DNA of 64,000 bases, taken from positions 1-64,000 of the forward strand of contig JAIUPH010000031.1 in assembly GCA_020161065.1 (NCBI GenBank), written 5' to 3'. The position numbers and the translations under genes were made by a program. This document shows positions 47,468-54,825 of the stretch, in pieces; the first letter of the stretch is position 1, and each line of letters starts with the position of its first letter. The notes below the pieces were generated by a model. It saw only the letters and a program-made list of their open reading frames with translations, did not search any database and was not told the origin of the DNA. Source of the stretch: Pseudomonadota bacterium. GTDB lineage: Bacteria > Pseudomonadota > Gammaproteobacteria > Burkholderiales > Burkholderiaceae_C.

Positions 47468-47782
47468 TCAGTACGTCAGCGTGCGGCCGCCCACGTCGAC
47501 CCGCACCACCGCCTGCCCCAGCGCCACCACCACGGCGCGCGCGAAGGCCTCGCGGAACTCGGCATCGTCCCGGAAGCGCGCCGGCCCCGCGGCATCGGCC
47601 AGCGCCAGCACCTTTTCGGCCGTCAGCACCTTGCCGCTGGCGCGCAGCGGCTCGCAGTCGTTGGCCACGTATTGCTGGTCCAGCCAGCGGCGCGCCTCGT
47701 CGGCCGCCAGGCCGGCGGCGCCGTGCACCGGAATCTCGAACTCGGTGCGCGCATCGAAGCTCACGAACACGTCCTGTCGCAT
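47468..47782 (-). CDS. Hypothetical small protein
   Basis: 104 residues from ATG 47782. It has no signal peptide or membrane helix and no recognised family. The sequence is balanced and looks folded: VFVSFDARTEFEIPVHG, RRWLDQQYVANDCEPLRASGK, and a C-terminal strand VVRVDVGGRTL. It lies 56 nt downstream of the DAHP synthase gene on the same strand, so it may be in that transcription unit. Codon bias fits a real gene. Confidence 0.65.
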   Translation of the reverse strand: MRQDVFVSFDARTEFEIPVHGAAGLAADEARRWLDQQYVANDCEPLRASGKVLTAEKVLALADAAGPARFRDDAEFREAFARAVVVALGQAVVRVDVGGRTLTY

Positions 47783-47838
47783 CGCCAACCACCTCCGTAG
47801 CCGGGCAGCATAACGGCGCCCGGCAGCGGCGGCTTGCG

Positions 47839-48978
47839 TCAGGCCAGATGCCGGCGCCGCGCCTTCACGGCGGCCGACAGGATGTGCAGCACCTCCACCG
47901 AATCGTCCCAGCCGATGCAGGCGTCGGTGATGCTCTTGCCGTACTCCAGCGCCGCCGGGTCGTCCTTGCCGGGGGTGAACTTCTGCGCGCCGGCGTGCAA
48001 ATGGCTTTCCACCATCACGCCGAACAGGCAGCGGTTGCCGGCCGCCATCTGCGCGCCGACGTCGCGCATCACGTCGATCTGGCGCTGGTGCTGCTTGCTG
48101 CTGTTGGCGTGGCTGGCGTCGATCATCAGCCGGCACGGCAGCTTGGCCGCTTCCAGGTCGCGGCAGGCCGCGGCCACGCTTTCGGCGTCGTAGTTCGGCG
48201 CCTTGCCGCCGCGCAGGATGACGTGGCAATCCTTGTTGCCCTTGGTCTCGACGATGGCGACCTGGCCGTTCTTGTGCACCGACAGAAAGTGGTGCGGCCG
48301 CGCTGCGGCCTGGATGGCGTCGCAGGCGATCTTCAAATTGCCGTCGGTGCCGTTCTTGAAGCCCACCGGTGCGGAAAGGCCGCTGGCCAGCTCGCGGTGC
48401 ACCTGGCTCTCGGTGGTGCGCGCGCCGATCGCACCCCAGCTGATCAGGTCGCCGATGTACTGCGGGCTGATCACGTCGAGGAACTCGCTGCCCGCCGGCA
48501 TGCCCAGGCGGTTGATGTCCACCAGCAACTGGCGCGCGATGCGCAGGCCTTCGTGGATGCGGTAGCTTTCGTCGAGGTAGGGGTCGTTGATCAGCCCTTT
48601 CCAGCCCACCGTGGTGCGCGGCTTCTCGAAGTACACGCGCATCACCACTTCCAGCTCGCCGGCGTGGCGCTCGCGCTCGGCCTTCAGCCGGCGCGCGTAC
48701 TCCAGCGCCGCGGCCGGGTCGTGGATCGAGCAGGGCCCGATGATCACCAGCAGCCGGTCGTCGTCGCCGGCCATGATGCGGCGCACGTTGTTGCGCGTGG
48801 CGCCCACCAGCGTCTCCACCGGCGTCTCGGCAATCGGGAAGAAGCGGATCAGGTGTTCCGGCGGCGGCAAGGGCGTGATGTCCTTGATGCGCTGGTCGTC
48901 GGTCTCGCTGGTCTTCTCCGACAGCGCGAAGCGGGCTTCGCGGGTCAGCGTGCTGCCGGGCGTGGCTTGGGGGCTCAT
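47839..48978 (-). CDS. aroG: DAHP synthase, class I (3-deoxy-7-phosphoheptulonate synthase)
   Basis: 379 residues from ATG 48978. It condenses phosphoenolpyruvate and erythrose 4-phosphate, the first step of aromatic amino acid synthesis. The AroG/AroF/AroH family blocks are visible: RFFPIAETPVETL, IIGPCSIHDPAAALEYA, YFEKPRTTVGWKGLINDPYLD, SFKNGTDGN-type VGFKNGTDGNLKIA, DASHANSSKQHQRQ and GWDDSVEVL. Which amino acid inhibits it cannot be read. The 190-nt upstream region holds a leader peptide rich in Phe, Tyr and Trp codons and an intrinsic terminator, so transcription is probably attenuated by charged aromatic tRNAs. Confidence 0.96.
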   Translation of the reverse strand: MSPQATPGSTLTREARFALSEKTSETDDQRIKDITPLPPPEHLIRFFPIAETPVETLVGATRNNVRRIMAGDDDRLLVIIGPCSIHDPAAALEYARRLKAERERHAGELEVVMRVYFEKPRTTVGWKGLINDPYLDESYRIHEGLRIARQLLVDINRLGMPAGSEFLDVISPQYIGDLISWGAIGARTTESQVHRELASGLSAPVGFKNGTDGNLKIACDAIQAAARPHHFLSVHKNGQVAIVETKGNKDCHVILRGGKAPNYDAESVAAACRDLEAAKLPCRLMIDASHANSSKQHQRQIDVMRDVGAQMAAGNRCLFGVMVESHLHAGAQKFTPGKDDPAALEYGKSITDACIGWDDSVEVLHILSAAVKARRRHLA

Positions 48979-49027
48979 CGGTTGCTTTCGGTGGGGTTGA
49001 TGCGAAAAGGGGCAAAAGGGGCGCCGG

Positions 49028-49060
49028 AAAAACAAAAACCGCCGGGGCTGCCGGCGGTTT
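49028..49060 (-). terminator. Attenuator terminator upstream of aroG
   Basis: On the minus strand a 10-bp perfect stem, AAACCGCCGG / CCGGCGGTTT (49060-49051 and 49045-49036), with a 5-nt loop CAGCC, is followed by TTTTTGTTTTT. This is a textbook Rho-independent terminator, located between the leader stop (49101) and the aroG start (48978), so it would end transcription before aroG unless an antiterminator forms. The 7-nt segment CCGGCGG at 49121-49115, inside the leader peptide gene, is identical to its 3' arm and can pair with the 5' arm. Confidence 0.88.
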
Positions 49061-49100
49061 CTGGGGGGTGCGCTGCTTGCTCGTCTGCTCTTGCGTGCGC

Positions 49101-49169
49101 TCAGGCCTCTCCAGCCGCCGGTGGGGGCGAGAACCAAAAGTACGCAAAGTAGAAGGCGGCGCAACGCAT
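49101..49169 (-). CDS. Aromatic leader peptide of the aroG attenuator
   Basis: A 22-codon ORF, starting ATG at 49169 and ending TGA at 49101, contains the run FYFAYFWF (codons 6-13): four Phe, two Tyr and one Trp in eight codons. This is too extreme to be chance in a coding-dense GC-rich genome. In leader-peptide attenuation the ribosome stalls on these codons when the charged tRNA is scarce; codons 17-19 carry CCGGCGG, which can then pair with the terminator's first arm and free aroG. When translation reaches the stop, it covers this region and the terminator forms. No ribosome site is visible, and the message may be nearly leaderless. Confidence 0.85.
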   Translation of the reverse strand: MRCAAFYFAYFWFSPPPAAGEA

Positions 49170-49177
49170 GGGGCGCG

Positions 49178-49186
49178 ACTGTAGCA
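49178..49186 (-). promoter_or_regulatory. Candidate extended -10 promoter of the aroG leader
   Basis: On the minus strand TGCTACAGT (TG-N-TACAGT) forms an extended -10 motif; TACAGT matches TATAAT at 4 of 6 positions. No well-spaced -35 is present (CTGAAA lies 20 nt upstream). Transcription would begin near 49171, 2-3 nt before the leader ATG, which would explain the missing ribosome site. Confidence 0.45.
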
Positions 49187-49205
49187 CGGTGGCCGCGCCG
49201 CCGTT

Positions 49206-51107
49206 TCAGACCAGCCGGCTGTCCGCCAGCGCGCGCAGCGGCTTGCGCAGCTTGGCGTAGGAGCCGCCCAGCGTGCAGACGAACAGGTGCAGCGGCCACT
49301 CGATGGCCGCCAGCCGGCCGACCACCTGCCGCTCGCGGCTGAGCAGCCGGCCCCACCAAGTCAGCGTCACGCCCAGCACGTAGCTGCGCGCGGCCGTGTC
49401 CGACGGCAGCACGCGCCGCGCAAGGTAGACGCGGGCGACGTGGCGCAGCGCCGGGCCGTTCAAGCGCAGGCGCACGGCCTCGCACGTGGCTTCGTCGGCA
49501 GCCACCAGCGCGTGGCGCACGTCGAGCTCGTGCAGCTCGCGCGCGCGCTGCTGCTCCCAGGCGTCGCGCGCGCGCCAGCGCTCGGCCACGCGCTCGGCAT
49601 CGGCCTGGCGCTGCTGCTTGACCCACCAGGCATGCAAGCGGTCGCAGGCCGGCTTGATGAAGTCGGCATCCAGCGCCATCGCGCGCTCGAGCAGCGCAAC
49701 GCCGCCTTCGTCGTCGTGATACAGGCGCTCGGCGCCCTCGAAGAACAGCGCCGCGGCGTGGTCGGGCTGCGCGGCGTTGAAGGCCGCCCAGGCCTCGCGC
49801 TGGTCGACCTCGACCTCCAGCGCCGTCTGCAGGCGCAGCCGCTCGAAGCGTTGCTCGCCGTCCAGCGCCGGCAGCGCGCGCAGCGCGGCCAAGCGCTCGC
49901 GGTCGTTGCGGATCTGCGCGTGGCGCTCGGCCCAGCCGGCGGCCACGCGCTCGGCCCAGGCCGACTCGAAGCGCCGGCGCAGTTCGGGCAGCACCGGCGC
50001 CAGCCAGGCCTCGGCCGCGCTCGGCCCTTCGGCGGGCGGCGGCAGCGCTTGCGGATCGGCCGCCGCGCCGGCCGCCGCGGCCAGCGCGGCCAGCCGCAGG
50101 CGCAGCACCGGGTGGGTGTCGGCCACGTCGCCTTCGCGGTCCAGCGCATCGGCCAGCCAGCGCTGGGCGTCGCCGGCCTCGGCCGGGCGCACCGCCTGCT
50201 CGGCCCAGCGCCGGCCCAGGTCGGCCGGCGGCTGCGCGTCGTCGCCCACGCGCTCGAAAGCGCGGCCGACGAAGCGCTGGTACTGCGGCGCCACCAGGTT
50301 GACGCGCTTGAGCGCACGGCTGGCCGCCGCCGCGCCCACCAGGTCGGCGCTGGCGGCGTCGGCCTCGTATTCGTTGGCGCGCGCCAGCACGAAGGTGTAG
50401 GCGTTGAAGTAAGGCGCGTACCAGCGCACCAGCGGCCGCACCAGCGCCGCCAGCCAGCCCTGCATCTGCCCGCTGAAGCCCTGGATCGTTCCCCAGCTGT
50501 GACGCAGCCGGTAGATCCACGCGCCGAAGCGCCCGTGCGAGCCGGCGAGGTGCCCGTACTCGTGCGCCACCACGGCCAGCGCCTCGTCGGGCGGCAAGCT
50601 CTCCAGCAGCGGCAGGCCCAGCAGCAGGTGGTTGCGCGCAAAGCCCACCAGCCCGAACGCCGGCCGCTGCACCACCGCGGCATTGACCTCGTCGATCACC
50701 AGCACGCGGTGCACGGGCGGCCCTTTCAGGCGCCGGCGCATGTCGTCCAGCGCGGCGAACAGCGCCGGCGCCTGGGCGCGCGCGAGCGGCTCGCCGGCCG
50801 GCGGCGGCACGCGCACGAACAAGGCCTGCACGCCATGCTTGACGAGGTAGAACATCGGCACCGCGATCACCAGCAGCAGCTTGCCCAGCTTCAGCAGCAG
50901 CAGCAGCGCGGCGCCGCCGCTCAACACCACCGCGGCCGTCAGCGCGACCAGCAGCAAGATGCCCAGCCCCACCGTGCCCAGCAGCAGCGCCAGGATGCCG
51001 AAGCCCAGCAGCGCCAACGCCGCCACCTTCAGCTTGTAGGCGCGCGGCGCCGCGGCGCTGTCGGCCTCCAGCCGGGCCACCATGGCCTGGAAACGGTCGC
51101 TGTCCAT
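49206..51107 (-). CDS. M48-family membrane metalloprotease with large C-terminal region
   Basis: 633 residues. Two or three hydrophobic helices fill residues 28-90, followed by an M48 peptidase domain with zinc site HEYGH (His182, Glu183, His186) and the third ligand in NEYEADAASADLVG. The C-terminal half (about 290-600) is helical and may be TPR-like. Other M48 proteins (HtpX, Oma1, BepA) perform membrane protein quality control; this subfamily is not assigned. Starts 15 nt after the ilvA stop on the same strand, so likely co-transcribed with tldD and ilvA. It ends 37 nt before the aroG leader. Confidence 0.87.
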   Translation of the reverse strand: MDSDRFQAMVARLEADSAAAPRAYKLKVAALALLGFGILALLLGTVGLGILLLVALTAAVVLSGGAALLLLLKLGKLLLVIAVPMFYLVKHGVQALFVRVPPPAGEPLARAQAPALFAALDDMRRRLKGPPVHRVLVIDEVNAAVVQRPAFGLVGFARNHLLLGLPLLESLPPDEALAVVAHEYGHLAGSHGRFGAWIYRLRHSWGTIQGFSGQMQGWLAALVRPLVRWYAPYFNAYTFVLARANEYEADAASADLVGAAAASRALKRVNLVAPQYQRFVGRAFERVGDDAQPPADLGRRWAEQAVRPAEAGDAQRWLADALDREGDVADTHPVLRLRLAALAAAAGAAADPQALPPPAEGPSAAEAWLAPVLPELRRRFESAWAERVAAGWAERHAQIRNDRERLAALRALPALDGEQRFERLRLQTALEVEVDQREAWAAFNAAQPDHAAALFFEGAERLYHDDEGGVALLERAMALDADFIKPACDRLHAWWVKQQRQADAERVAERWRARDAWEQQRARELHELDVRHALVAADEATCEAVRLRLNGPALRHVARVYLARRVLPSDTAARSYVLGVTLTWWGRLLSRERQVVGRLAAIEWPLHLFVCTLGGSYAKLRKPLRALADSRLV

Positions 51108-51122: not shown

Positions 51123-52352
51123 TCAGATCGCGCGCGCGTCGAAGCCGGCCTGCGCGAGATGGCGCACCACGTCGTGGCCATGCTCGCGGTTGCGCGTCTG
51201 CAGCACCAGCTCGACCTCGACGTTCTGCGCCGACAGCGACGAGAACGCGCGCTGGTGGTGCACCTCGTCGATGTTGGCGCCGGCGGCGGCCACCAGCGCG
51301 GTGATGCGGGCCAGCACGCCCGGCGTGTCGGGCGCGGCGACGCGAATGCGCGCCAGCCGACCGGCGCGCACCATGCCGCGCTCGATGATCGAGGCCAGCC
51401 GCAGCGGGTCGATGTTGCCGCCGCTCAGCACCAGGCCGACGCAGCGGCCGGCGAAGCGCTCGCGGTGGCGCAGCAGCGCCGCCAGGCCGGCGGCGCCGGC
51501 GCCTTCGACCACCGTCTTCTCGATCTCCAGCAGCATCAGCACCGCCTGCTCGAGGTCGCCTTCGTCGACCAGCACGAGGTCGTGCACGCGCTCGGCGATC
51601 AGCGCGCGCGTCAGCTCGCCCGGCTGGCCGACCGCGATGCCCTCGGCCAGCGTGCTGTCGCCCGGCGCATGGCGGGTGCCCTTGATGGCGTCGAACATCG
51701 CCGCATAGCGCTCGGCCTGCACGCCGATGACCTGCAGCGCCGGCCGCAGCGCGCGCGCCGCGGTCGCAATGCCGCTGGCCAGCCCGCCGCCGCCCACCGA
51801 CACCAGCAGCGTGTCGAGCGCCGGCTGCGCCTGCAGCATCTCCAGCCCCACCGTGCCCTGGCCGGCGATGATCAGCGGGTCGTCGAAGGGGTGCACGAAG
51901 CTCAGGCCCTGCGCGGCCGCGAGCCGCAGCGCGTGCTCGCGCGCGGCGTCGAAGCTGTCGCCGTGCAGCACCACCTCGGCACCGAAGCCGAGCGTGCGCT
52001 CGACCTTCACGGTGGGCGTGAACTGCGGCATCACGATCACCGCGCGCAGGCCCAGGCGCTGCGCATGGTGGGCCACGCCTTGCGCGTGGTTGCCGGCGGA
52101 GGCGGCGATCACGCCGCGCAACTCGGCGCGGCCGGCGTCGCGCTCGGCCACCAGCGCCAGCAGCTTGTTGAGCGCGCCGCGCTCCTTGAACGAAGCGGTG
52201 AACTGCAGGTTCTCGAACTTCAGGAAGACGCGCGCGCCGGTCAGCTCGGACAGCGTGCGCGATTCCAGGCAGGGCGTGTCCAGCACCTGGCCTTGCAGGC
52301 GCGCCGCCGCCGCCTCGATGTCGGCCAGGCTAACGTCTGAAGCAGGCGTCAA
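51123..52352 (-). CDS. ilvA: Threonine ammonia-lyase (threonine dehydratase) with ACT domain
   Basis: 409 residues from TTG 52352, overlapping the tldD stop (TTGA). PLP enzyme that deaminates threonine (and serine) to 2-oxobutanoate. The Schiff-base lysine is Lys56 in FTASFKERGALNKLL; the PLP phosphate loop SVGGGGLASGIA and GQGTVGLEML are present. A single ACT-like domain ends the protein (VAAPDTPGVLARITALVAAAGANIDEV), which fits the short catabolic or ACT-type class rather than the two-ACT biosynthetic IlvA. A biosynthetic role is therefore not certain. Adjacent tldD and M48 genes suggest housekeeping expression. Confidence 0.92.
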   Translation of the reverse strand: MTPASDVSLADIEAAAARLQGQVLDTPCLESRTLSELTGARVFLKFENLQFTASFKERGALNKLLALVAERDAGRAELRGVIAASAGNHAQGVAHHAQRLGLRAVIVMPQFTPTVKVERTLGFGAEVVLHGDSFDAAREHALRLAAAQGLSFVHPFDDPLIIAGQGTVGLEMLQAQPALDTLLVSVGGGGLASGIATAARALRPALQVIGVQAERYAAMFDAIKGTRHAPGDSTLAEGIAVGQPGELTRALIAERVHDLVLVDEGDLEQAVLMLLEIEKTVVEGAGAAGLAALLRHRERFAGRCVGLVLSGGNIDPLRLASIIERGMVRAGRLARIRVAAPDTPGVLARITALVAAAGANIDEVHHQRAFSSLSAQNVEVELVLQTRNREHGHDVVRHLAQAGFDARAI

Positions 52353-53812
52353 GCGGTGCCCCCGACCGTCAGCCGGTCGATGCGCAGCGTGGGCTGGCCC
52401 ACGCCCACCGGCACGCTCTGCCCGTCCTTGCCGCAGACGCCGACGCCGGTGTCGAGCTTCATGTCGTTGCCGATCAGGCTGACGCGCGTCAGCGCCTCGG
52501 GGCCGTTGCCGATGATGGTCGCGCCCTTCACCGGGTACTGGATGCGGCCCTTCTCCACCCAGAAGGCCTCGCTCGCCGAGAACACGAACTTGCCGCTGGT
52601 GATGTCGACCTGGCCGCCGCCGAAGTTGGTGGCGTACAGGCCGCGGTCGATGCTGGCGACGATCTCGGCCGGGTCCTTGTCGCCGCTGAGCATGTAGGTG
52701 TTGGTCATGCGCGGCATCGGCACGTGGGCGTAGCTCTCGCGGCGGCCGTTGCCGGTGGGCTTGACGCCCATCAGCCGCGCGTTCAGGCTGTCCTGGATGT
52801 AGCCGCGCAGGATGCCGTCCTCGATCAGCACGCTGCGCTGCGTGGCGCAGCCTTCGTCGTCGACGTTGAGCGAGCCGCGGCGGTCGGCCAGCGTGCCGTC
52901 GTCGAGCACCGTCACGCCCTTGGCGGCCACGCGCTCGCCGATGCGGCCGGCGAAGGTGCTGCTGCCGCGGCGGTTGAAGTCGCCCTCCAGCCCGTGGCCC
53001 ACCGCCTCGTGCAGCAGCACGCCGGGCCAGCCCGGGCCCAGCACCACGGTCATCTCGCCGGCCGGCGCGGGGCGGCTGTCGAGGTTGGTCAGCGCGGCGT
53101 TGACGGCCTGCTCGACATAACTCTCGATCACCGCGTCCGTGAAGTAGCCCAGCCCGAAGCGCCCGCCGCCGCCGCCCGAGCCCACCTCGCGGCGGCCGCC
53201 CTGCTCGGCGATCACGGTCACGCTCAGGCGCACCAGCGGCCTCACGTCGGCGGCGCGGGTGCCGTCGGCGCGCGCCACCAGCACCACGTCGTACTCGGCG
53301 GCCAGCCCGGCCATCACCTGGGCGATGCGCGGGTCCTTGGCGCGCGCCAGGCGCTCCACCTTCTCCAGCAGCGCCACCTTCTGCGTGCTGTCCAGCGTGG
53401 CGATGGGGTCCAGCGGCGCGTACAGCACGCGGCTGGCCGCCACCTTGGGCGCGCGCGCCAGCTTGACGCGCCGCTCCTGCCCGGCCGCGGCAATGGTGCG
53501 CACGGTGCGCGCCGCGTCCATCAGGCTGGCCACCGACAAGTCGTCGCTGTAGGCGAACGCCGTGCGCTCGCCGGCCACCGCGCGCACGCCCACGCCCTGG
53601 TCGATGCTGAAGCTGCCGCTCTTGACGATGCCTTCTTCCAGGCTCCAGCCTTCGTGGCGCGTGGTCTCGAAGTAGAGGTCGGCGTCGTCGACGCGGTGCT
53701 CACGGATGGTCGCCAGCGCGCGCGACAGCGCCGCGTCGTCCAGCCCGAAGGGTTCGAGCATCAGCGCCTGCGCGATGGCCAGGCGTTCGAGGGTGGGTTC
53801 GCGGCTGATCAT
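52349..53812 (-). CDS. tldD: Metalloprotease TldD
   Basis: 487 residues from ATG 53812. The zinc motif HEAVGH in GPGWPGVLLHEAVGHGLEGDFNR is diagnostic of TldD (HExxxH plus a later Cys in the CGKDGQSVPVGVG block). TldD works with TldE/PmbA to degrade small proteins and unstructured peptides and to mature peptides such as microcins; pmbA is not in the window. The gene has a plausible promoter in the short spacer after rsmI. ilvA starts within its stop codon. Confidence 0.97.
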   Translation of the reverse strand: MISREPTLERLAIAQALMLEPFGLDDAALSRALATIREHRVDDADLYFETTRHEGWSLEEGIVKSGSFSIDQGVGVRAVAGERTAFAYSDDLSVASLMDAARTVRTIAAAGQERRVKLARAPKVAASRVLYAPLDPIATLDSTQKVALLEKVERLARAKDPRIAQVMAGLAAEYDVVLVARADGTRAADVRPLVRLSVTVIAEQGGRREVGSGGGGGRFGLGYFTDAVIESYVEQAVNAALTNLDSRPAPAGEMTVVLGPGWPGVLLHEAVGHGLEGDFNRRGSSTFAGRIGERVAAKGVTVLDDGTLADRRGSLNVDDEGCATQRSVLIEDGILRGYIQDSLNARLMGVKPTGNGRRESYAHVPMPRMTNTYMLSGDKDPAEIVASIDRGLYATNFGGGQVDITSGKFVFSASEAFWVEKGRIQYPVKGATIIGNGPEALTRVSLIGNDMKLDTGVGVCGKDGQSVPVGVGQPTLRIDRLTVGGTA

Positions 53813-53849
53813 GGCGGCCTTTGGCGTGGACTCGACGAGCGGGGCGCAA

Positions 53850-53878
53850 ATTGTAGGGAGCGGGGTGCCGGGCTTCAG
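53850..53878 (-). promoter_or_regulatory. Candidate sigma-70 promoter of the tldD operon
   Basis: On the minus strand CTGAAG (53878-53873), a 17-nt spacer and TACAAT (53855-53850) form a good -10 (5 of 6) and a weak -35. It overlaps the rsmI stop codon and lies 38 nt before the tldD ATG, so tldD, ilvA and the M48 gene could be transcribed from it. Confidence 0.55.
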
Positions 53879-54825
53879 TCTTCGGCGGCGATGTCCCTGC
53901 CCTCGCCGCGCCGCTGCAGCGCCCGCTGGTACAAGGCCTTGCGCGGCGCGCCGCTGATTTCGGCGGCCAGCACCACGGCCTGCTTGAGCGGCAGCTCGCG
54001 CTGCAGCACGGCCAGGCAATGTTCGGCGGCCGCCGGCAATGCATCGCCCGCCGCCGCCGGCGCCGGCGGCGCGGCGTGCAGCACCAGCACGAACTCGCCG
54101 CGCTCGCGGTGGGCATCGGCGGCCAGCCAGGCCGGGGCATCGGCGGCCGCCAGCGTGGCCACCGCTTCGAACTGCTTGGTCAGCTCGCGGGCGACGGTCA
54201 AACGGCGCTGCGGCGCGGCCGCCGCCAGGTCTTGCAGCAGGCCGCGGACGCGGTGCGGCGCCTCGAACAGGATCTGCGTGCGCGCATCGCCGCAAGCCGC
54301 CTGCAGCGCCGCCTGGCGCTCGGCGCCCTTGGCCGGCAGAAAGCCCTGGAAGACGAAGGCGCCGCCGGCGGCGTCGCCCACGTCACCGGCCACGCTCAAG
54401 GCCGCCAACGCGCTGCTGGGCCCGGGGATCGGCACCACCGCGAAACCGGCGGCCACCGCCGCGGCGACCAGTCGCGCGCCGGGGTCGGACACGCCCGGCG
54501 TGCCGGCATCGCTGACGAAGGCCACCGCGTCGCCGGCGGCCAGGCGCTGGCAGACGCGCTCGGCCGCCTCGTTCTCGTTGTGCGCGTGCACGGCCAGCAG
54601 CGGCTTCGGCGCCACGCCGTAGTGCGCCAGGAGCTGGGCGGTGACCCGCGTATCCTCGCAAGCCACGCAGTCGGCGCGCTGCAGCAGGTGCAGCGCGCGC
54701 AGCGTGATGTCGGCGCGGTTGCCGATCGGCGTGGCCACCAGGTACAGCGTGGCGCCGGGATGGCGTTGATGGCCGGCGGCGGCGGCCGCGGCGCTGCGCA
54801 GCAGGGAGGCATCGATGACGCTCAT
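53875..54825 (-). CDS. rsmI: 16S rRNA 2'-O-ribose C1402 methyltransferase RsmI
   Basis: 316 residues from ATG 54825. The tetrapyrrole methylase fold shows TLYLVATPIGNRADITLRAL, ACEDTRVTAQLLAHYG, FVSDAGTPGVSDPGARLV, PIPGPSSALAAL and FLPAKGAERQAAL, all diagnostic of RsmI. It methylates the 2'-O of C1402 in the ribosomal decoding centre. It is divergent from yraN, with which its start region overlaps: rsmI begins inside the first yraN codons. A Pro/Ala-rich insertion before the C-terminal helices is not unusual. Confidence 0.96.
   Translation of the reverse strand: MSVIDASLLRSAAAAAAGHQRHPGATLYLVATPIGNRADITLRALHLLQRADCVACEDTRVTAQLLAHYGVAPKPLLAVHAHNENEAAERVCQRLAAGDAVAFVSDAGTPGVSDPGARLVAAAVAAGFAVVPIPGPSSALAALSVAGDVGDAAGGAFVFQGFLPAKGAERQAALQAACGDARTQILFEAPHRVRGLLQDLAAAAPQRRLTVARELTKQFEAVATLAAADAPAWLAADAHRERGEFVLVLHAAPPAPAAAGDALPAAAEHCLAVLQRELPLKQAVVLAAEISGAPRKALYQRALQRRGEGRDIAAED

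Follow-up and report, generated by a model that had tools for sequence, protein, structure and literature searches.

The window, by which we mean the whole stretch of 64,000 nucleotides analysed here, carries on its minus strand the gene aroG, assigned to the DAHP synthases by scores of 319.5 bits against PF00793 and 529.1 bits against TIGR00034 aroFGH (cut-off 173.2). In the interval separating aroG from the next gene upstream, coding for an M48-family peptidase, lie a small ORF dense in aromatic codons and an intrinsic terminator (Table 1). The original prediction of a 22-codon minus-strand ORF at 49169-49101 encoding FYFAYFWF, followed by a perfect 10-bp stem and T-tract at 49060-49028 before aroG, was borne out base for base, and CCGGCGG, part of the 3' arm of the terminator, does recur at leader codons 17-19 (49121-49115). 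The stem is formed by AAACCGCCGG (49060-49051) and CCGGCGGTTT (49045-49036) around the loop CAGCC, and the T-tract TTTTTGTTTTT occupies 49038-49028, its initial TTT belonging to the stem. An ORF scan of both strands of the window returned the aroG leader as the sole small ORF with at least five aromatic codons in eight. The leader RNA (49175-49028) folds with a z-score of -3.13 relative to dinucleotide shuffles, and none of the 4227 families of Rfam release 15 matched above its gathering score anywhere in the 64 kb. A generic terminator scan of 47600-49700 detected two sites, compared with 1.4 expected in shuffled sequence, so that terminator shape taken alone carries little weight; it is mainly conservation among relatives that argues against a chance origin of the leader and carries the case.

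Table 1. Features of the aroG leader region in the window.
Feature	Position	Strand	Details
aroG, type-I 3-deoxy-7-phosphoheptulonate (DAHP) synthase, presumed regulated gene	47839..48978	minus	PF00793, TIGR00034
Intrinsic terminator (10-bp stem, 5-nt loop, T-tract)	49028..49060	minus	from sequence, relatives and terminator scan
Segment 3, CCGCCGG, common to putative antiterminator and terminator	49051..49057	minus	motif anchoring and RNAalifold
Leader ORF, MRCAAFYFAYFWFSPPPAAGEA	49101..49169	minus	22 aa, ATG...TGA; aromatic run at 92/110 aroG loci
Predicted 1:2 hairpin (pause / anti-antiterminator), GGTTCTCGCCCC and GGCGGCTGGAGAGGCC side	49104..49135	minus	folding
Segment 2, CCGGCGG, putative antiterminator 5' side, within leader ORF	49115..49121	minus	motif anchoring and folding
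Control codons F-Y-F-A-Y-F-W-F	49131..49154	minus	leader codons 6-13, 7/8 aromatic
Extended -10 element, TGCTACAGT	49178..49186	minus	8 nt before leader ATG; predicted start ~49169-49171
M48-family peptidase, 633 aa	49206-51107	minus	ends 36 nt before leader

Conservation was examined at 110 aroG loci (given L numbers here), comprising the best 30 of the 81 matches listed by a search in which 56 of 61 genomes gave aroG matches, together with the best 80 of at least 591 matching stretches. The aromatic runs expected upstream of aroG orthologues were found, an upstream run of at least five aromatic codons in eight being present in 92 of the 110 loci. These 92 represent 88 distinct stretches (the same-stretch pairs are L005/L032, L021/L031, L029/L036 and L091/L094), and a terminator is present at 90 of the 92, the remaining two, L077 and L084, gaining one under looser limits. 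Lack of conservation of leader frame and terminator, set out beforehand as grounds for refutation, is thus not what the relatives show. Leaders differ by lineage, with FYFAYFWF-S..AAGEA in the Rubrivivax type, FYFYFWFSVPGGREA in the Comamonadaceae type, KFYFYFFWHLKPLADREG in Burkholderia and Caballeronia and FFTGYFYFSNSNPKAVE in Rugamonas and its kin. The 18 loci without a five-in-eight run resolved on reading into four with a weaker leader and the RNA layout kept (L022, L027, L061, L070), one without upstream sequence (L064) and 13 without any visible leader. The last group, sorted by record title and in the case of L110 by sequence, consists of four Polynucleobacter-like loci, two from Cupriavidus, three from Thauera, Rhodocyclus and Azoarcus, one Ideonella copy and three others, in records labelled Planctomycetota, Verrucomicrobiia and Gemmataceae. 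Two individual loci deserve description. In L070 the leader MKNFLQFGFFKNFLTAPGAAQRV, found within the 260 nt preceding the estimated aroG start, has Phe as its sole aromatic residue, and its core, read by eye, is altered to GGGGCGG in the leader and CCGCCCC..GGGCGG in the terminator, an additional concerted change. In L084, from a Candidatus Burkholderia, the leader frame runs past the usual stop and the leader has probably decayed.

A covariance model built from 83 of 86 distinct stretches (L011, L016 and L033 were left out) extended the distribution across order and class. The window's own genome yields one full-length match, the site itself. Across the order, full-length matches at E <= 2.2e-8 were obtained in 34 of 150 genomes, the window's own included, with 13 family codes represented. 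Matches with E between 9.6e-6 and 1e-3 were not counted; most span only approximately positions 100-135, the terminator, and a few run full length (G050, G080, G174). A further 29 sites were fetched (L156-L184), of which all 29 have an aromatic-run leader and a DAHP synthase gene downstream on the same strand; none is identical to any alignment row, and six come from genomes whose aroG region had also been sampled separately. Among 143 genomes of the class there were two new matches. L185, which lies outside the order, has a leader ending ...ARFYRWYYFPKPPAEEGVRAF, a terminator and a DAHP synthase 58.7% identical; this leader either predates the order or was transferred. L186, with no DAHP synthase match and no aromatic ORF, was rejected as a leader. 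Of another 40 sampled regions, preceding other aroG matches, seven contained a leader (L115-L118, L124, L127, L128), and 16, at second-type copies of approximately 50-62% identity from the window's own genus, had none.

The nucleotides that would pair in alternative structures also recur. The GGCGG core of segment 2 is present in 118 of 122 leaders, and CCGCC in segment 3 and GGCGG in segment 4 are nearly invariant. Segments were anchored by motif because the MAFFT alignment A1 misregisters segment 2 of some lineages and RNAalifold sees only the terminator in it. Anchoring used GGCGG exclusively, dropping L039, L077, L163 and L169, which do not have this core. In the 118 anchored loci the base beside the core in segments 2, 3 and 4 is C/G/C in 60, T/A/T in 24 and A/T/A in two (57, 24 and two of 114 once duplicates are dropped), T/G/C in 13 retains a G-U pair, and the 2:3 pair is broken at this position in 17. 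Terminator pair 165:182 is G-C in 63, A-U in 18 and U-A in two of the 83 rows with none broken, and RNAalifold on A1 backs the terminator pair with 20 double changes in 83. Outward extension of the 2:3 helix amounts to 166 pairs, compared with a mean of 129 and a maximum of 146 in 2000 shuffles, a permutation that ignores kinship and for which L082 was misanchored, on GGCCG. On a protein tree the covarying segment 3 base changes just five times, a number with which a sign test cannot reach 0.05; in the tree pairs, agreement with the change in segment 3 amounts to 4.9 of 5 for segment 4 and to 2.5 of 5 for segment 2, the latter with 0.1 in the opposite direction. Covariation as statistical proof was rejected, since the permutation ignores relatedness and five independent changes are too few. 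Thus, the covariation anticipated for terminator and antiterminator is present as concerted bases and a positive permutation but is underpowered on the tree; judged from the motifs, leader, antiterminator and terminator arms appear to vary together between lineages.

Aromatic codons in the run are kept as amino acids, Phe codons alternating between TTT and TTC, and behind the run it is apparently the RNA rather than the peptide that is conserved. The peptide's C-terminal half varies from lineage to lineage (AAGEA, GGREA, PLADREG, NPKAVE) while the RNA motifs recur, and in L038, L074, L075 and L076 the frame stops at GGCGGATGA with GAGAG persisting past the stop. Phe codon choice is distinctive, TTT and TTC occurring 244 and 129 times in the leaders (65% TTT) versus 73 and 520 times in aroG (12%), and at 90 of 92 loci TTT makes up a larger share of the Phe codons in the leader than in aroG, the two shares being equal at the other two. 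A plausible source of this bias is that sensing leaders favour the codon read by wobble. TTT directly precedes the Trp codon in 66 of 76 cases.

Folding predicts the classical attenuator layout of 1:2, 2:3 and 3:4 pairings for the window, and the antiterminator suggested earlier, mutually exclusive with the terminator through the terminator 5' arm, is supported by sequence and folding alike. The 1:2 hairpin segment is predicted at -12.9 kcal/mol, and in the free RNA segment 2 lies inside this hairpin, giving a probability of 2:3 pairing, P(2:3), of 0.00. A stalled ribosome was modelled by letting the RNA pair from 13 nt past its A-site onwards, an assumed footprint with which P(2:3) becomes 1.00 for stalls at each codon of the run. 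With the same 13-nt assumption, codon 13, the last aromatic, is the final stall leaving the GGCGG core free, and codon 14 masks it. Over 90 loci, mean P(2:3) is 0.42 without a ribosome versus 0.90-0.99 with a stalled one. The distance from the last aromatic codon to the core is 11-20 nt in 114 of 118 loci with a mode of 14; measured against the assumed footprint it is 13 nt or more in 87 and less than 13 nt in 31. At most Burkholderia-type and some other loci 2:3 pairing is predicted even in the absence of a ribosome, and the no-translation state may differ there from that of the window. Compared with shuffled sequence, the 1:2 hairpin is only modestly stabilised, with a mean z of -1.12 over 105 segments, 23 of which are above 0; its longest match is TTCTC..GAGAG in 46 loci, by far the commonest.

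Initiation of the leader RNA is predicted from a second conserved block. In 67 of the 92 loci, the window included, 6-9 nt separate an extended -10 element (consensus GTGCTACATT) from the start codon, which is ATG in 66 and GTG in one, mostly with CC just before it. In the 64 distinct upstream regions of these loci the element is the only strongly conserved upstream block, and no conserved -35 block was found. GGAG, GAGG or AGGA was found within the last 20 nt before the start in none of the 91 loci with an assigned start codon. With an extended -10 at this distance and no Shine-Dalgarno motif, the leader mRNA of the window is probably leaderless or nearly so. The other loci belong mainly to the Oxalobacteraceae and Burkholderia types; at 18 the best -10 candidate lies 25-48 nt upstream and at six the pattern matched nothing, so that these leaders are probably leadered. 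Leaderless mRNAs are on record in Burkholderiales, in the B. cenocepacia start sites (PMC4603805) and in Cupriavidus (PMC7563307), and the S. meliloti trpL leader RNA, which begins with the ATG of its leader ORF, is a leaderless attenuator (PMC7298713).

The original prediction that this leader gates the first step of the whole pathway went too far. Three PF00793 matches occur in the window's own genome, namely the window aroG, an AroG-like copy at C24 and a match at C21 which we take to be KdsA; no type-II DAHP synthase was found there. The copy at C24 is 59% identical to the window aroG, and the 1 kb surrounding its start (L111) contains no aromatic leader; it is among the 16 own-genus regions without a leader mentioned above. 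As this second copy exists, just one of the two AroG-type DAHP synthases would come under the leader's control. With respect to neighbouring genes, the gene at 52349-54295 of the window presumably encodes a TldD-like protein. Read by eye at L052, L054, L055, L060, L110 and the window, the end of a TldD-like protein directly precedes aroG in the Polynucleobacter-like set that has no leader, and at L060 it precedes the leader; genes for threonine ammonia-lyase and the M48 peptidase stand between it and aroG in the window. This arrangement suggests that the TldD-like gene is an old neighbour of aroG and that the insertions came later.

The M48 gene, lying on the same strand and ending at 49206, 36 nt before the leader, raises the alternative that the terminator merely ends this gene and that the aromatic ORF is a coincidence, an alternative favoured also by the near-chance rate at which generic terminator shapes were found. 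However, no M48 homologue was found in the other 109 aroG loci (tblastn, E 1e-5), the one in 110 being the window's own, and leader and terminator therefore travel with aroG. In addition, the longest upstream ORF at the 92 leader loci lies on the minus strand in 48 and on the plus strand in 44 while leader and terminator stay, and the window's sole small ORF rich in aromatic codons falls exactly at the site. As the element is conserved across differing upstream genes, assignment of the terminator to the M48 gene was rejected, and we consider it extremely improbable. A different possibility is that the leader mainly makes a trans-acting peptide or small RNA, comparable to peTrpL and rnTrpL in Sinorhizobium, with attenuation being secondary. 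The terminated RNA would indeed be a leaderless mRNA of ~140 nt, and such products are described as acting in trans in S. meliloti (PMC7298713). Nevertheless, variation of the peptide C-terminal half among lineages that share the RNA motifs, and the four loci in which a stop cuts the peptide short with GAGAG retained behind it, argue against a mainly trans-acting role, which we regard as very unlikely.

Which amino acids the attenuator would read is less settled. The proposal that Phe, Tyr and Trp are all sensed is consistent with the codons, but Trp is not universal. In the run plus three residues on either side, F occurs in all 122 leaders (118 distinct), Y in 113 and W in 95, and 89 leaders have all three; with duplicates dropped the values are 118, 109, 91 and 85 of 118. 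Mean codon numbers per leader are 4.05 for Phe, 1.64 for Tyr and 0.85 for Trp, and by these counts Phe appears to be the constant, with Tyr and Trp as common companions. Essentially Phe-only sensing, or sensing of Phe and Tyr with the Trp codon incidental, would fit this gradient, as well as the L070 leader, missed by the five-in-eight scan, in which Phe stands alone, and the C. glutamicum aroR leader (Phe-Tyr-Phe), reported in a review to be unaffected by Tyr availability (PMC11802643). Conversely, 76 of 92 loci retain a Trp codon, which in the window holds a good stalling position, and all three residues occur together in 89 of the 122 leaders. We hold a Phe-centred attenuator to be a serious possibility, although one falling short of an even chance.

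Conserved frame, terminator, complementarity and a ribosome-compatible geometry strongly support attenuation, and the site is very probably a ribosome-mediated transcription attenuator of aroG. Anatomy, complementarity and geometry are conserved among the loci; from them we infer a start site, translation, termination and an amino-acid response that would operate as follows. RNA polymerase would start at the leader AUG or one to two bases off, and a ribosome would load on the leaderless 5' end and translate the leader. Scarcity of charged Phe, Tyr or Trp tRNA would stall the ribosome on one of the seven aromatic codons, covering segment 1 and leaving segment 2 (CCGGCGG, codons 17-19) free to pair with segment 3 (CCGCCGG), in which case no terminator would form and aroG would be transcribed. 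When all three amino acids are plentiful, the ribosome would proceed over segment 2, 3:4 pairing would follow and transcription would stop after ~140 nt at 49028. If the leader is not translated, the 1:2 hairpin would sequester segment 2 and termination would again be favoured. The most far-reaching version is an OR gate: one leader RNA, itself leaderless and coupled to an extended -10 promoter of its own, kept across many Burkholderiales families and having a relative outside the order in one family or more, in which lack of any one aromatic amino acid would open the committed step and the ~140-nt RNA or its peptide would also act in trans. Taken in its entirety, this version is unlikely.

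DAHP synthase sets flow into the whole shikimate pathway. If attenuation operates as proposed, this enzyme would be controlled at the RNA level by a widespread leader that could read all three end products. For many sequenced species the proposal predicts start sites, a terminated RNA of ~140 nt and a small ORF ahead of aroG, and efforts to engineer aromatic production in Burkholderiales would have a switch ready to use. With the -10 directly before the leader AUG, the site could furthermore provide a clean case for how a leaderless ribosome matches polymerase pace in attenuation. An earlier description of an aroG leader in Burkholderiales was not encountered in the open-access literature searched, as judged by titles and the beginnings of abstracts. 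The main texts of PMC4603805 and PMC7563307 contain no aroG, leader peptide or attenuat-, and in that of PMC2864571, which presents 104 RNA candidates, the terms aromatic, leader peptide and attenuation do not occur. Taken singly, attenuation of DAHP synthase, leaderless attenuators and leaders reading several residues are already known or proposed; their combination, place and spread were not found in the open-access literature searched.

The 1:2, 2:3 and 3:4 logic, with control codons followed by segment 2, is that of the E. coli trpL-trpE and pheL-pheA attenuators, and the enterobacterial ilvG and thrA leaders provide a precedent for one leader reading several amino acids of a branched pathway, as proposed here, albeit for another pathway and other codons. 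An attenuator preceding a DAHP synthase gene, Corynebacterium glutamicum aroR-aroF, was reportedly described by Neshat et al. in 2014. There, a Phe-Tyr-Phe leader peptide before the DAHP synthase gene is associated with ribosome-mediated attenuation (PMC11802643, PMC4046766, PMC3890552), the review reporting a response to Phe and none to Tyr (PMC11802643). From these partial descriptions, aroR-aroF is the closest known system, sharing an aromatic leader peptide before a DAHP synthase gene; it belongs to an actinobacterium, however, and has three aromatic codons with Trp unmentioned in the text available, whereas the Burkholderiales leaders mostly have six to eight in a run of eight. In Shewanella, regulatory RNAs are likewise predicted before the DAHP synthase genes aroF and aroH, aroF being tabled as an 'attenuator sensing tyr-tRNA' with citation of a 1980 E. 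coli study, but the accessible description, on which the comparison is based, includes no aromatic leader peptide (PMC2659441). For the E. coli DAHP synthase genes, the parts of the sources available name the repressors TyrR and TrpR (PMC5343134, PMC11802643), and trpL-trpE and pheL-pheA, while sharing the segment logic, act on terminal branches and read one amino acid each (PMC11802643). The S. meliloti trpL leader is leaderless, as is proposed for the window, but is described as responding to Trp only, preceding trpE(G) and having trans functions (PMC7298713).
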